Shown: piece after piece, positions 931 to 20,736 of the stretch
How positions within the stretch are numbered: the stretch's first letter is position 1
Layout: each line of letters opens with the position of its first letter
Assembly (NCBI GenBank): GCA_030603495.1
Contig: JAUVXR010000038.1
Span: forward strand, 1 to 22,884
DNA from: a bacterium
Lineage (GTDB): Bacteria > Armatimonadota > Zipacnadia > Zipacnadales > Zipacnadaceae
Reading direction: 5' to 3'
Length of the DNA stretch: 22,884 bases
Position numbers and translations under genes: made by a program
The notes under the pieces: model-generated
The model's input: the letters and a program-made list of their open reading frames with translations, nothing else
Database searches by the model: none
What the model was told of the DNA's origin: nothing

Positions 931-1100
931 TGTGGGAGGGGCTTCTGCGGATGCGAGTGGCCGCTTGGCCCCGACCATGCTATACCGTAGGAGCGACATT
1001 CTTGTCGCGACTACATTGGACAAAGGCCGACAGGCGAGACGCCTGTCGTACCGAACGGCAGCGGCAGTCGCGACAAGAATGTCGCTCCTACCACCGTATA
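931..1100. repeat. Composite palindromic repeat island
   Basis: This island sits between two convergent stop codons. 931-980 is a variant of the GTGGGAGGGGC...GCCCCGACC repeat also found at 8206-8238 and 18484-18512. Directly after it, 987-1012 and 1066-1091 form a perfect 26-base inverted repeat. Each arm is itself a hairpin (GCGACA TTCT TGTCGC). In the centre, 1028-1036 and 1040-1048 form another perfect nine-base stem (CGACAGGCG, loop AGA). Its outer sequence (GGTACGACAGGCGTCTCGCC in reverse) matches the repeat at 7713 and 5959. The structure looks like one palindromic element nested in another. It could also act as a bidirectional terminator or REP-like mRNA stabiliser. Confidence 0.85.
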
Positions 1101-7712: not shown

Positions 7713-7762
7713 GGTACGACAGGCGTCTCGCCCGTAGTGAGCTTGCCGAACTGCCTATCGGG
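7713..7762. repeat. Dispersed repeat copy in the argG leader
   Basis: Starts GGTACGACAGGCGTCTCGCC and continues with GTAGTGAGCTTGCCGAACTG. It matches 5959-6008 over its full length. It lies just upstream of the argG ribosome binding site, between the promoter at 7836-7864 and the start codon, so it would be transcribed as part of the leader. Confidence 0.75.
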
Positions 7763-7876: not shown

Positions 7877-8590
7877 TCAGCTTGCTTCCGGCTTGATGAA
7901 TCTGACAGTGTAAGCCCAGAAGTTCCCATACGCCTGATCCAGTATGAAACCAGCCTGCTGCCCTTCCCTGACGGTGGTAGACTTCAGGCGATAGTCCGGG
8001 TCCATAAACATCTCAGTAACAGCCAGATAGCCGCCGACTCGTAGCACTCTCTTGATCTCGTGGAGAGCCTGCTGGGGGTCAGGGATTTCATACAGAACGC
8101 TCGTCACCCCGACGACATCAAGCGAATTCGCTGCAAAGGGCAACTGGTGGGCGCTGGCCCGTATCAGTCCGACATTCGCTGGTGGCTCTTGTATCCTCAA
8201 TGATGCTGTGGGAGGGGCACCCTTGCCCCGACCATGCTCGTTGCTAGCCTCGTTCTCCAGCCGGGCCAGCTTGCGGGCAAGTAGGTCGAGCATCGCCGGC
8301 TGAATATCTAGCGCACATACCCGACCGTTCTCGCCGACCGCTCGGGCATAGGGAATAGTAAGCGTGCCGCTGCCGCAGCCCAGGTCGAGGACCGTCAGCC
8401 CCTCGGCAATGCCGCTCCACTCTATCAGCTTCTCCGGCGGCTGGACTCGTCTTCTCAGCTTGCTATCCAGAACGTGGCTGATAAAGGCCGGCGCGGGAAA
8501 GTGCCAGAACCGCCGGACAACCCGCGCCAGCACCTGGTGGAGGAGGATAATGCATCCGACAATTACCAGCAGGAGCTTGATAGCTGTCAT
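7877..8590 (-). CDS. Membrane-anchored class I SAM-dependent methyltransferase with a palindromic insertion
   Basis: A 237-residue methyltransferase. Residues 4-22 form one hydrophobic anchor, followed by a basic stretch (ARVVRRFWHFPAPAFISHVL). The SAM-binding motif I is LDLGCGSG at 68-75, the acidic residue ending beta-2 is in CALDIQP (92-98), and motif III-like LDVVGVTSVLYEIPDP and RVLRVGGYLAVTEMF follow. Between the beta-2 helix (LARKLARLE) and NVGLIRASAHQLPF there are about 20 extra residues (114-136). Part of these (HGRGKGAPPT) is encoded by the palindromic repeat at 8206-8238. The frame stays open, so the gene may still work. The substrate is unknown; UbiE-like small molecules or lipids fit a membrane anchor. 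ATG 8590 comes two bases after the DNA methyltransferase stop, with AGAGGA upstream, so the two are coupled. Confidence 0.88.
   Translation of the reverse strand: MTAIKLLLVIVGCIILLHQVLARVVRRFWHFPAPAFISHVLDSKLRRRVQPPEKLIEWSGIAEGLTVLDLGCGSGTLTIPYARAVGENGRVCALDIQPAMLDLLARKLARLENEASNEHGRGKGAPPTASLRIQEPPANVGLIRASAHQLPFAANSLDVVGVTSVLYEIPDPQQALHEIKRVLRVGGYLAVTEMFMDPDYRLKSTTVREGQQAGFILDQAYGNFWAYTVRFIKPEAS
8206..8238 (-). repeat. Palindromic element inside the SAM methyltransferase gene
   Basis: In coding direction the sequence runs GCATGGTCGGGG, then CAAGGG, then TGCCCCTCCCACAGC. The core hairpin is GGGGCA / TGCCCC with loop AGGG. The same core lies at 18493-18508 inside miaB, and a variant at 931-980 between genes. 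Here it is translated as HGRGKGAPPTA. Confidence 0.85.
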
Positions 8591-17776: not shown

Positions 17777-19141
17777 TTAGCTCTGTGCTGCTATCTCGCC
17801 TAAAAAGCCCCACAGGTAGGCCTCTTGGGTCTGCACCTGGACCAGTTTGCCGATGAGTCGCTCCTGGCCAGGGAATATCACCAATCTATTCGTGCGCGTG
17901 CGCCCTCGGACCTTCCCGGGCGACTTGGCGTCGGCTCCTGCCACGAGCACCTCGAAGCTCTTGCCGACGAGCTTCTGATTGATCTGGCGGGCTGTTTCAT
18001 TCTGCAGCGCCACCAGTTGCTCCAGGCGGGCTTGCTTGACCGCTTCGGGGACCTTATCCGGCATCTCCGCGGCGCGGGTGCCGGGGCGGTCGCTGTATTT
18101 GAACATAAAGGCCTGATCGAAGCGGATTTCCTCGAATGCCCGCAGCGTATTGTGAAACTGCTCTTCGGTCTCGCCGGGGAAGCCGACCATCACGTCGGTA
18201 GTGATGCTGAGGCCGGGGATGCGCTCGCGGGCAGCTTCGACAAGATGGCGATACTGCTCATAGGTATAGCCCCGGCCCATCCGCGCCAGCACCTCGTCGT
18301 CGCCAGCCTGGATGGGCAGGTGCAGGTGCTCGCAGACATTGGGGAGTCCGGCTATTGCTGCGAGGAGGCTAACCGAGATGTCCTTGGGATGCGAGGTGGT
18401 AAAGCGGATACGCTCGAGTTCTTCAACCCTGCTCACCTCTGCCAACAAATCGGCAAACCCGTAGCCCTCCTCCTGACTCATCACAGTGGGGGAGGGGCAC
18501 CCTTGCCCCGCTCCCGAGCCGTATGAATTAACGTTTTGCCCCAGCAGCGTGACCTCCTTGTATCCCTCGGCCACCGCCTGCTCGACCTCGGCCACAATCT
18601 CCTGCACAGGTCGGCTCTGTTCCCGGCCGCGGGCGTAGGGCACGACGCAGTAGGTACAGAAGTTGTTGCAGCCGTAAGTGACGTTCACGAACGCGGAAAC
18701 TGGTGTTGTGCGCCGCACGGGCAAGGCCTCGGGGATCGTCTTGTGGCTGTCGGTCACGATGACAGGGTCGTTGGGTGCCGAAGTGCGCTGGACAGTCTTG
18801 ATCGCCTGGGCCAGTTGCGCATAGTTGCGGGGGCCGATGATGATATCCACATAGGGCGCGCGGCGGGCAATCTCTTGAGCCGCGACCTGGGCGACGCAGC
18901 CGAGTACTGCGATGATGGTCTGGGGTCGCTCTTGCTTGATCCGGCGCAGCTCCCCGAGCTTGGAGAAGACCTTATGCTCGGGCTTAGCCCGCACTGCGCA
19001 AGTATTGAGCGCGATGAAATCCGCCTCTGCAGGGGTCTGCGCCGGCTGGTAGCCTAGACAGTGCAGGATTCCGGCGACCGTCTCCGAGTCGCGCTCGTTC
19101 ATCTGGCAGCCCATAGTGTCTATAGTATATCGTCGCGGCAT
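17777..19141 (-). CDS. miaB: tRNA-2-methylthio-N6-dimethylallyladenosine synthase with palindromic insertion
   Basis: MiaB is a radical-SAM methylthiotransferase that adds a methylthio group to i6A37 of tRNAs reading UNN codons. About 454 residues from ATG 19141. The N-terminal UPF0004 domain supplies Cys12 (MGCQMN), Cys48 (LNTCAVR) and Cys82 (LGCVAQ). The radical-SAM triad CNNFCTYC is at 158-165, and the C-terminal TRAM domain starts near 390 (LVGKSFEVLV, GRTRTNRLVIF). Between NVNSYG and FADLL (about 209-228) there are extra residues SGAGQGCPSPTVMSQE encoded by a palindromic repeat. Homologues have a short variable loop there. The start lacks a ribosome binding site but a TATACT box lies nine bases upstream, so a leaderless mRNA is likely. 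Confidence 0.97.
   Translation of the reverse strand: MPRRYTIDTMGCQMNERDSETVAGILHCLGYQPAQTPAEADFIALNTCAVRAKPEHKVFSKLGELRRIKQERPQTIIAVLGCVAQVAAQEIARRAPYVDIIIGPRNYAQLAQAIKTVQRTSAPNDPVIVTDSHKTIPEALPVRRTTPVSAFVNVTYGCNNFCTYCVVPYARGREQSRPVQEIVAEVEQAVAEGYKEVTLLGQNVNSYGSGAGQGCPSPTVMSQEEGYGFADLLAEVSRVEELERIRFTTSHPKDISVSLLAAIAGLPNVCEHLHLPIQAGDDEVLARMGRGYTYEQYRHLVEAARERIPGLSITTDVMVGFPGETEEQFHNTLRAFEEIRFDQAFMFKYSDRPGTRAAEMPDKVPEAVKQARLEQLVALQNETARQINQKLVGKSFEVLVAGADAKSPGKVRGRTRTNRLVIFPGQERLIGKLVQVQTQEAYLWGFLGEIAAQS
18484..18512 (-). repeat. Palindromic element inside miaB
   Basis: In coding direction GGGGCAAGGGTGCCCC then TCCCCCACTG. It shares the whole hairpin core with the copy at 8206-8238 but is read one frame over, as AGQGCPSPT instead of GRGKGAPPT. 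The frame stays open on both sides. Confidence 0.85.
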
Positions 19142-19180
19142 GATAGCTTGAGTATAGCATCTCCGGCGGGACCTGGGCAA
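19142..19180 (-). promoter_or_regulatory. Predicted miaB promoter, probably leaderless
   Basis: On the minus strand TATACT (19156-19151) lies nine bases before ATG 19141. A weak -35 TTGCCC is 18 bases further up. A normal start 6-8 bases after the -10 would fall within about three bases of the ATG, and no ribosome binding site is present. Confidence 0.5.
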
Positions 19181-20433: not shown

Positions 20434-20736
20434 AATAGCGGCTGAGGGAGATGGTCGCGGGAGGACGATAAACAACCAGGTGGTGCCCGTGACATGTCGC
20501 TTAGAAAGCGCCTCAACCACAACTAAAGCGAAAAACTGGATATCGTACCCTCTCAATTGTGAGAGGTAGCTCTTACAACAATCTATGCATAGCTACGATC
20601 ACCGTTATTGAATAGTCCTGCCGCTATCAACCATATCCATTATAGCACATTTACTGCTTGACTTGTACCCTCCCATGCTATACTATAGCATGAGCGTGGC
20701 TTTTACACCAGTCTCTACTAAAAAGGAGGCAGTATT
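20434..20736. other. 303-base intergenic region with promoter elements
   Basis: No protein or RNA gene seen. It is more AT-rich than its surroundings. A hairpin at about 20547-20568 pairs TACC-TCTCA with TGAGA-GGTA (one bulged C, loop ATTG); without a T run it is not a clear terminator for the upstream gene. The last 80 bases hold the promoter and palindrome of the LamG gene. Confidence 0.6.
20658..20692 (+). promoter_or_regulatory. Promoter with overlapping 19-base palindrome
   Basis: TTGACT at 20658-20663 is a good -35. Downstream, CATGCTATACTATAGCATG (20674-20692) is a perfect palindrome around a central C. It contains both possible -10 boxes: TATACT at spacing 15 and TACTAT at spacing 17. 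A dimeric repressor bound there would cover the -10. Transcription would start near 20693, leaving a leader of about 44 bases with AAAAGGAGG at 20721-20729. Confidence 0.65.

Follow-up and report, generated by a model that had tools for sequence, protein, structure and literature searches.

In-frame REP elements of the GTAG superfamily in protein genes of a Zipacnadia bacterium (Armatimonadota) and its relatives

A stretch of 22,884 nucleotides from a Zipacnadia genome (the window) contains a short palindromic repeat that is read in frame within two protein genes, one for a SAM-dependent methyltransferase and the other miaB. The repeat is a REP element of the GTAG superfamily, dispersed through the genome and apparently mobile. 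Very probably it has been spread by a RAYT transposase, the genic copies surviving where they are in frame, free of stop codons and placed in a surface loop of the host protein. In five relatives, complete RAYT genes are themselves found in frame inside DNA methyltransferases, four of them Type ISP enzymes and one a DUF1156 enzyme. It is these embedded RAYTs that most merit follow-up: they go beyond precedent, as does a loop of the Type ISP enzymes that serves as a hotspot for REPs.

The repeat in the window and in the genome

The preliminary description of this DNA had reported one hairpin core in both genes, and the window search locates it: the 16-nt core GGGGCAAGGGTGCCCC, on the minus strand, matches exactly at 8214-8229 and at 18494-18509. 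The full element is longer than the core, spanning 8206-8233 in the methyltransferase gene (CTGTGGGAGGGGCACCCTTGCCCCGACC, written 5'-CTGTGGGAGGGGCACCCTTGCCCCGAC) and 18488-18511 in miaB. The intergenic variant first placed at 931-980 is a copy with a long loop at 932-974, and the peptides given for the two genic copies, GRGKGAPPT and AGQGCPSPT, are the correct readings, in different frames. The features of the window are as follows.

932..974, plus strand: REP family A variant with an enlarged loop, intergenic
987..1010, plus strand: REP family B, GTAGGAGCGACATTCTTGTCGCGA, intergenic
1029..1051, minus strand: REP family C, GTACGACAGGCGTCTCGCCTGTC, intergenic, flanked by two family B copies
1068..1091, minus strand: REP family B, inverted partner of 987-1010
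7714..7736, plus strand: REP family C, diverged (2 mismatches), intergenic between argG and the methyltransferase gene
7877..8590, minus strand: SAM-dependent methyltransferase (Methyltransf_11 / UbiE-like), 237 aa, with a 63-nt in-frame insert that includes a REP
8206..8233, plus strand: REP family A, canonical copy, inside the methyltransferase gene and antisense to it, read as GRGKGAPPT
17777..19180, minus strand: miaB, tRNA methylthiotransferase, 467 aa as an open frame (TIGR01574, 505.6 bits), with a 36-nt in-frame insert
18488..18511, plus strand: REP family A, degenerate copy, inside miaB, with the head GGGG for GTGG, read as AGQGCPSPT

Positions 932-1091 form an intergenic cluster of three REP families: A (with the long loop), B, C and an inverted B. 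A likeness between 20662-20688 and 964-990 was set aside, as it looks like a -10-like TATA stretch and not like a REP.

Two copies in the window alone are weak evidence and mildly surprising, with 3 of 100 shuffled windows reaching two core matches at up to three mismatches; it is the genome-wide count that settles the matter. Such a count had been proposed in the preliminary description, and it lies far above chance. In the source genome (G000, 2.67 Mb; the other G numbers denote genomes of relatives, and the genomes are draft assemblies) the exact core occurs 15 times, and 25 times at up to two mismatches, a tolerance at which the reversed core used as a control matches once. When the 15 cores are aligned together with their flanks, conservation ends at GTC...CCCAC/CCTAC, which is GTGG/GTAG plus the hairpin on the other strand, and the sequence flanking the element is not conserved between copies. 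The REP element is 25-28 nt long, 5'-GTRG followed by a 6-bp stem. The head was not part of the search pattern: 12 of the 15 exact-core copies carry GTGG, two carry GTAG and one, that of miaB, is mutated, so that the GTRG tag is present in 14 of 15 and lost in the miaB copy.

A strict pattern based on this architecture, GTRGGAGNGNCAYYCYTGNCNCGA, was searched in 15 genomes with the reversed pattern as control. It finds 40 copies in G000, 57 in G001, 50 in G004 and up to 111 in relatives from two genera, and none in the family's remaining two genera; the control has no matches in any of the 15 genomes. The stem is paired in 97.4% of cells, and both of the pairs that the pattern leaves free covary (GC, CG, AU, UA), with 22 double-changed cells, a value as high as which was found in 0 of 500 shuffles. 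Families A (GTGGGAGGGGCACCCTTGCCCCGAC) and B (GTAGGAGCGACATTCYTGTCGCGAC) are distinguishable, and family C (GTASGACAGGCGTCYCGCCTGTC) has 77 copies in G000 (control, 0). Counts against controls, for families A/B and for C, rule out a chance origin of the repeat. Among 84,980 species genomes, the exact A element is found only in Candidatus Zipacnadia records or unnamed MAGs.

Inserts in the methyltransferase, MiaB and other proteins

Between two conserved blocks the methyltransferase has 46 residues in G000 and 54 in G001, compared with 25 in G004, G006, G011 and G016, which amounts to a net insert of 63 nt in G000 and 87 nt in G001. The insert occupies about residues 117-139 and is missing in four to five orthologues, which run directly from KLA..N(K/S)G to N(V/I); the preliminary description had likewise put the repeat between a helix and the next strand, where relatives pass straight through. 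The predicted structure (mean pLDDT 91) has the ordinary class I methyltransferase fold, and the model places the insert in a loop at the surface, as a low-confidence coil (pLDDT 63-73) between helix 98-118 and strand 140-144. In G001 the same site is filled by an A copy whose own loop contains another palindrome.

Three side observations concern this gene. The REP accounts for 27 of the 63 nt, and the other ~36 nt, at window positions 8234-8270 and 8176-8205, are unexplained and partly common to G001. In the G001 gene (L029:641-1369), TTCGGCAAGCTCAGGATAA lies in the REP loop as a nested REP-like insertion. A second, partial copy of the methyltransferase lies at a contig edge of the source genome (G000:C51:64-195), where a fragment matches its final 44 residues with 86% identity.

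In MiaB, the spacing between conserved blocks is 35 residues in G000, 48 in G001 and 23 in six relatives, giving net inserts of 36 nt and 75 nt. The insert is missing in at least 15 orthologues, and the extra residues align with a loop of 7mjv. The G001 gene carries B and A copies in tandem. Insert length was a check suggested in the preliminary description, and the 63 nt and 36 nt of the source genome are both multiples of three; distant orthologues that share the extra residues without a related DNA repeat, which it had named as counter-evidence, did not appear, the distant orthologues being devoid of these residues. Both host genes are under purifying selection, with dN/dS against G001 of 0.28 for the methyltransferase and 0.16 for miaB.

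It is very improbable that the inserts are an artefact of assembly or binning, with repeats misjoined in a metagenome-assembled genome. The assemblies are drafts and REPs do break contigs, as in the Type ISP gene of G008, but the reading frames run on across the repeat, the sites are common to two independently assembled species, and the purifying selection on the host genes also argues against an artefact. Both sites are filled in G000 and G001, and differently, so the inserts are older than the species split and have been altered since: insertion into the methyltransferase and miaB would have preceded the separation of G000 from its nearest compared relative, where different or additional REPs now fill both sites. 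No clean empty site was found in any close relative, and for this reason the exact insert borders and any target duplication are not fixed.

Across the genome, with the genes around each copy called by a hexamer coding score, the REPs are mainly intergenic. About 14 of ~120 copies (40 strict A/B and 77 C) are inside genes, far below the expectation for a mostly coding genome with unselected insertion. About nine genes of G000 carry in-frame REPs: those for the methyltransferase, MiaB, an AddA/UvrD-like helicase, PheT, DnaX, a glycosyltransferase, a spermidine-synthase-like protein, a Type ISP enzyme and the RAYT at C1. The helicase insert is missing in nine orthologues and the REP pair of pheT is missing in relatives; the alignments with empty orthologues exclude dnaX, the glycosyltransferase and the spermidine-synthase-like gene. 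Pairs of orthologues with and without an insert make tolerance directly testable.

Several other candidates were rejected as intragenic copies. L116/L355 (FixC-like), L298 (amidase), L221, L302, L331 and L334 are upstream DNA behind a misplaced start; L090, L099, L106, L110 and L114 are shadow ORFs by the hexamer coding score; L107, L144 and L145 are chance matches of the variable-gap pattern; and in L208 (sugar-kinase-like) the stem pairs poorly and the residues look native. The REP in the G001 DEAD/DEAH helicase is not extra sequence: it falls within a variable tail whose length is unchanged.

The repeat had been described as a frame-neutral palindrome, and a six-frame stop scan bears this out for families A and C, which are open in 6 of 6 frames; B is open in 5 of 6. 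Across loci the elements are read in at least eight different combinations of frame and orientation, and the near-absence of stops would make the element tolerable in either orientation. Among random 28-mers of the same composition, 23% are open in all six frames, and the stop-free frames are a modest aid to tolerance, not a proof of design. The in-frame pattern is silent on targeting, since selection alone would leave the same pattern.

The insert peptides are probably translated and neutral. It is quite unlikely that the REPs are instead kept for a function, be it an mRNA hairpin that makes translation slower or the message more stable, or a peptide that alters the protein. For many REPs a role at the level of RNA or DNA is presumed (PMC3733652), and related species have REPs in the same loops (miaB and the methyltransferase in G000 and G001, and site 2 of the Type ISP enzymes in six genomes). 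The elements at one site nevertheless differ in family, number and frame, with neither peptide nor RNA sequence conserved; most relatives do without inserts altogether; and in the methyltransferase the model gives the insert as a coil of low confidence.

RAYT genes, free and embedded in DNA methyltransferases

The preliminary description noted that a source of mobility, for example a RAYT, is not in the window. This is right for the window and holds only there: the source genome encodes three RAYTs, at C48 (97.6 bits), C20 (101.2 bits) and C1 (80.5 bits), scored with NCBIfam NF047646, for which the curated cut-off is 80 bits, and the HuH and catalytic Tyr motifs are present. The C48 gene (G000:C48:107661-108071) is flanked by a plus and a minus copy of REP A at distances of 16-20 nt, and the 542-nt unit of this RAYT with its inverted REP A copies is also found in G005. 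RAYTs of the C48 kind cleave single-stranded REPs at CT, with GTAG read as a guide (PMC8266576), and the C48 RAYT presumably moves the REPs described here. The C1 RAYT has an internal family C copy, in frame. The C20 RAYT (G000:C20:219251-219643) has no family A/B copies at its ends. RAYT genes with in-frame family C REPs between HuH and Tyr lie at L294:946-1542(-) and L400:1544-2209(-), a placement already published for subclass 2.4.

In the proposed mechanism, the REP would spread as single-stranded DNA, moved by a RAYT whose gene lies outside the window; RAYTs are HUH tyrosine transposases of the IS200/IS605 kind. Copies would arrive at many sites, most of them surviving only between genes; within a gene, a copy would persist only if the net insert were a multiple of three, left the host's reading frame free of stops and fell in a surface loop.

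One loop appears to have been occupied repeatedly. Between VRY and RVYINK (site 2), the Type ISP enzymes of six genomes contain REPs of different families.

G000: two family C copies
G003 and G013: family A copies
G008: CGGC and GGCC hairpins
G011: one family B copy
G009, from a genus without A/B: GTAGGGGCGGCGCTTGCGCCGCCC

The loop is in the C-terminal domain (L322:1402-4560(-); L280-L286), and the Type ISP genes of G003 and G008 have tandem runs of REP units. In the Type ISP enzymes of the outgroup families the loop is short, with no REP between VRY and RVYINK, and the second Type ISP copy of G013 (L324) also has a short loop and no REP. As this hotspot shows, REPs of different families can settle anew in one and the same loop of a protein.

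Intragenic copies could also arise with no part played by RAYT, through replication slippage or through gene conversion among REPs that a variable loop already contains. REP clusters and the REP within a REP in G001 are consistent with this, as are the tandem runs in G003 and G008 and the turnover of families at one site. As a general account it is unlikely: it covers turnover at an occupied site but not the first arrival in otherwise ungapped proteins (PheT and MiaB, for example), and RAYTs with REP ends exist in the genome.

The enzymes into which entire RAYT genes are built are the following.

G011, Type ISP site 1, L402:4107-8261(-): 1385-aa ORF
G017 (another family), Type ISP site 1, L389:2298-6494(-): 1399-aa ORF, with a RAYT 40% identical to that of G011
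G003, Type ISP site 2, L323:2-1912(+): 637-aa partial ORF, frameshift near the end
G008, Type ISP site 3, L384:1-2787(+): the contig ends inside
G039, DUF1156 enzyme (anti-phage-type), L383:3-3662(-): 1220-aa partial ORF

The embedded RAYTs have intact HuH and Tyr motifs, REP ends and no stop. That of G011 is 71% identical to the free C1 RAYT of G000. The Type ISP hosts belong to PF18135, and plasmid homologues are contiguous, with no RAYT. In the structural model of the G011 protein, the RAYT (pLDDT 92-97) and the ISP domain fold apart, joined by disordered REP-encoded linkers (pLDDT 27-42). The PDB entries that match this model best are those of the E. coli RAYT (4er8) and of the Type ISP enzymes LlaGI and LlaBIII. 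The G003 gene has its frameshift close to the 3' end (L323 near 1855), and this copy may be inactive. A further candidate, a RAYT inside a DUF1156 enzyme of Candidatus Chlorohelix (Chloroflexota), was dropped, as the transposase is directly upstream, adjacent and not inside (L403:2300-2800).

On balance, it seems somewhat probable that a whole transposon lives in frame in host proteins: these would be single polypeptides from which the transposase domain projects on disordered linkers encoded by REPs, and certain loops would be recurrent docking sites in which successive REP families replace one another. If true, the in-frame RAYTs are a rare instance of a bacterial transposase gene carried within the protein it interrupted, and would make escape from the cost of gene disruption testable. 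No earlier report of in-frame RAYTs in DNA methyltransferases was found, in a search that was thin on subscription journals.

Comparison with known systems

The preliminary description took Rickettsia palindromic elements as the precedent and a repeat of this kind outside Rickettsia as new. The precedent proves to be the wrong relative. Rickettsia elements are also palindromes that insert in frame and are kept as peptide, but they form another superfamily with a CGTC tag and no known or dedicated transposase (PMC3733652), whereas the tag here is GTGG/GTAG and there is a RAYT with cognate REP ends; that the repeat is an element of the Rickettsia type (RPE/CGTC superfamily) in a new host has a next to negligible probability. 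Nor is the habit new: in-frame GTAG REPs were published in 2013 (PMC3733652), and REPs in frame inside RAYT genes were described in 2018 (Quentin et al., PMC6006769). MITEs have 70-300 nt, terminal inverted repeats and a target duplication; the element here has 25-28 nt.

The closest match is the GTAG superfamily (Di Nocera et al. 2013, PMC3733652), which shares the unpaired GTRG head, the short stem (5-13 bp in that superfamily, 6 bp here), the short loop, the tens of copies, the dimers and clusters, the mostly intergenic location, the REP-flanked RAYT and some in-frame genic copies. Intragenic in-frame copies are described there from Opitutus, Thauera, Xanthomonas, Stenotrophomonas and others, including GTGG-headed REPs (as in O. 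terrae), lying wholly inside ORFs as singles, dimers or groups that encode 20-82 residues. Frequent hosts are uvrABCD (uvrD among them), recBCD, polymerase and tRNA-modification genes, and recB of two Xanthomonas species has GTAG REPs at about the same site.

The C1 RAYT resembles RAYT/TnpAREP subclass 2.4, with its double-foot REPs (PMC6006769), in having a REP between HuH and Tyr, and family C often ends in GTAC/GTAG on both sides, as the double-foot REPs do. The available text of Quentin et al. (2018) does not describe whole RAYTs in other proteins, and unusually long fused proteins were discarded in that work (PMC6006769). A literature search for REPs in Armatimonadetes or RAYT fusions gave nothing relevant, and Armatimonadota are not among the hosts reported in the cited text of the 2013 survey (PMC3733652), which covers 24 families. 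The present elements extend REP/RAYT systems with in-frame intragenic copies to this phylum, and their extent is a further addition. The hotspot gene has the fold of the Type ISP enzymes LlaGI and LlaBIII (5ffj, 4xqk), to which the Zipacnadia relatives add REPs, or an entire RAYT, in loops.
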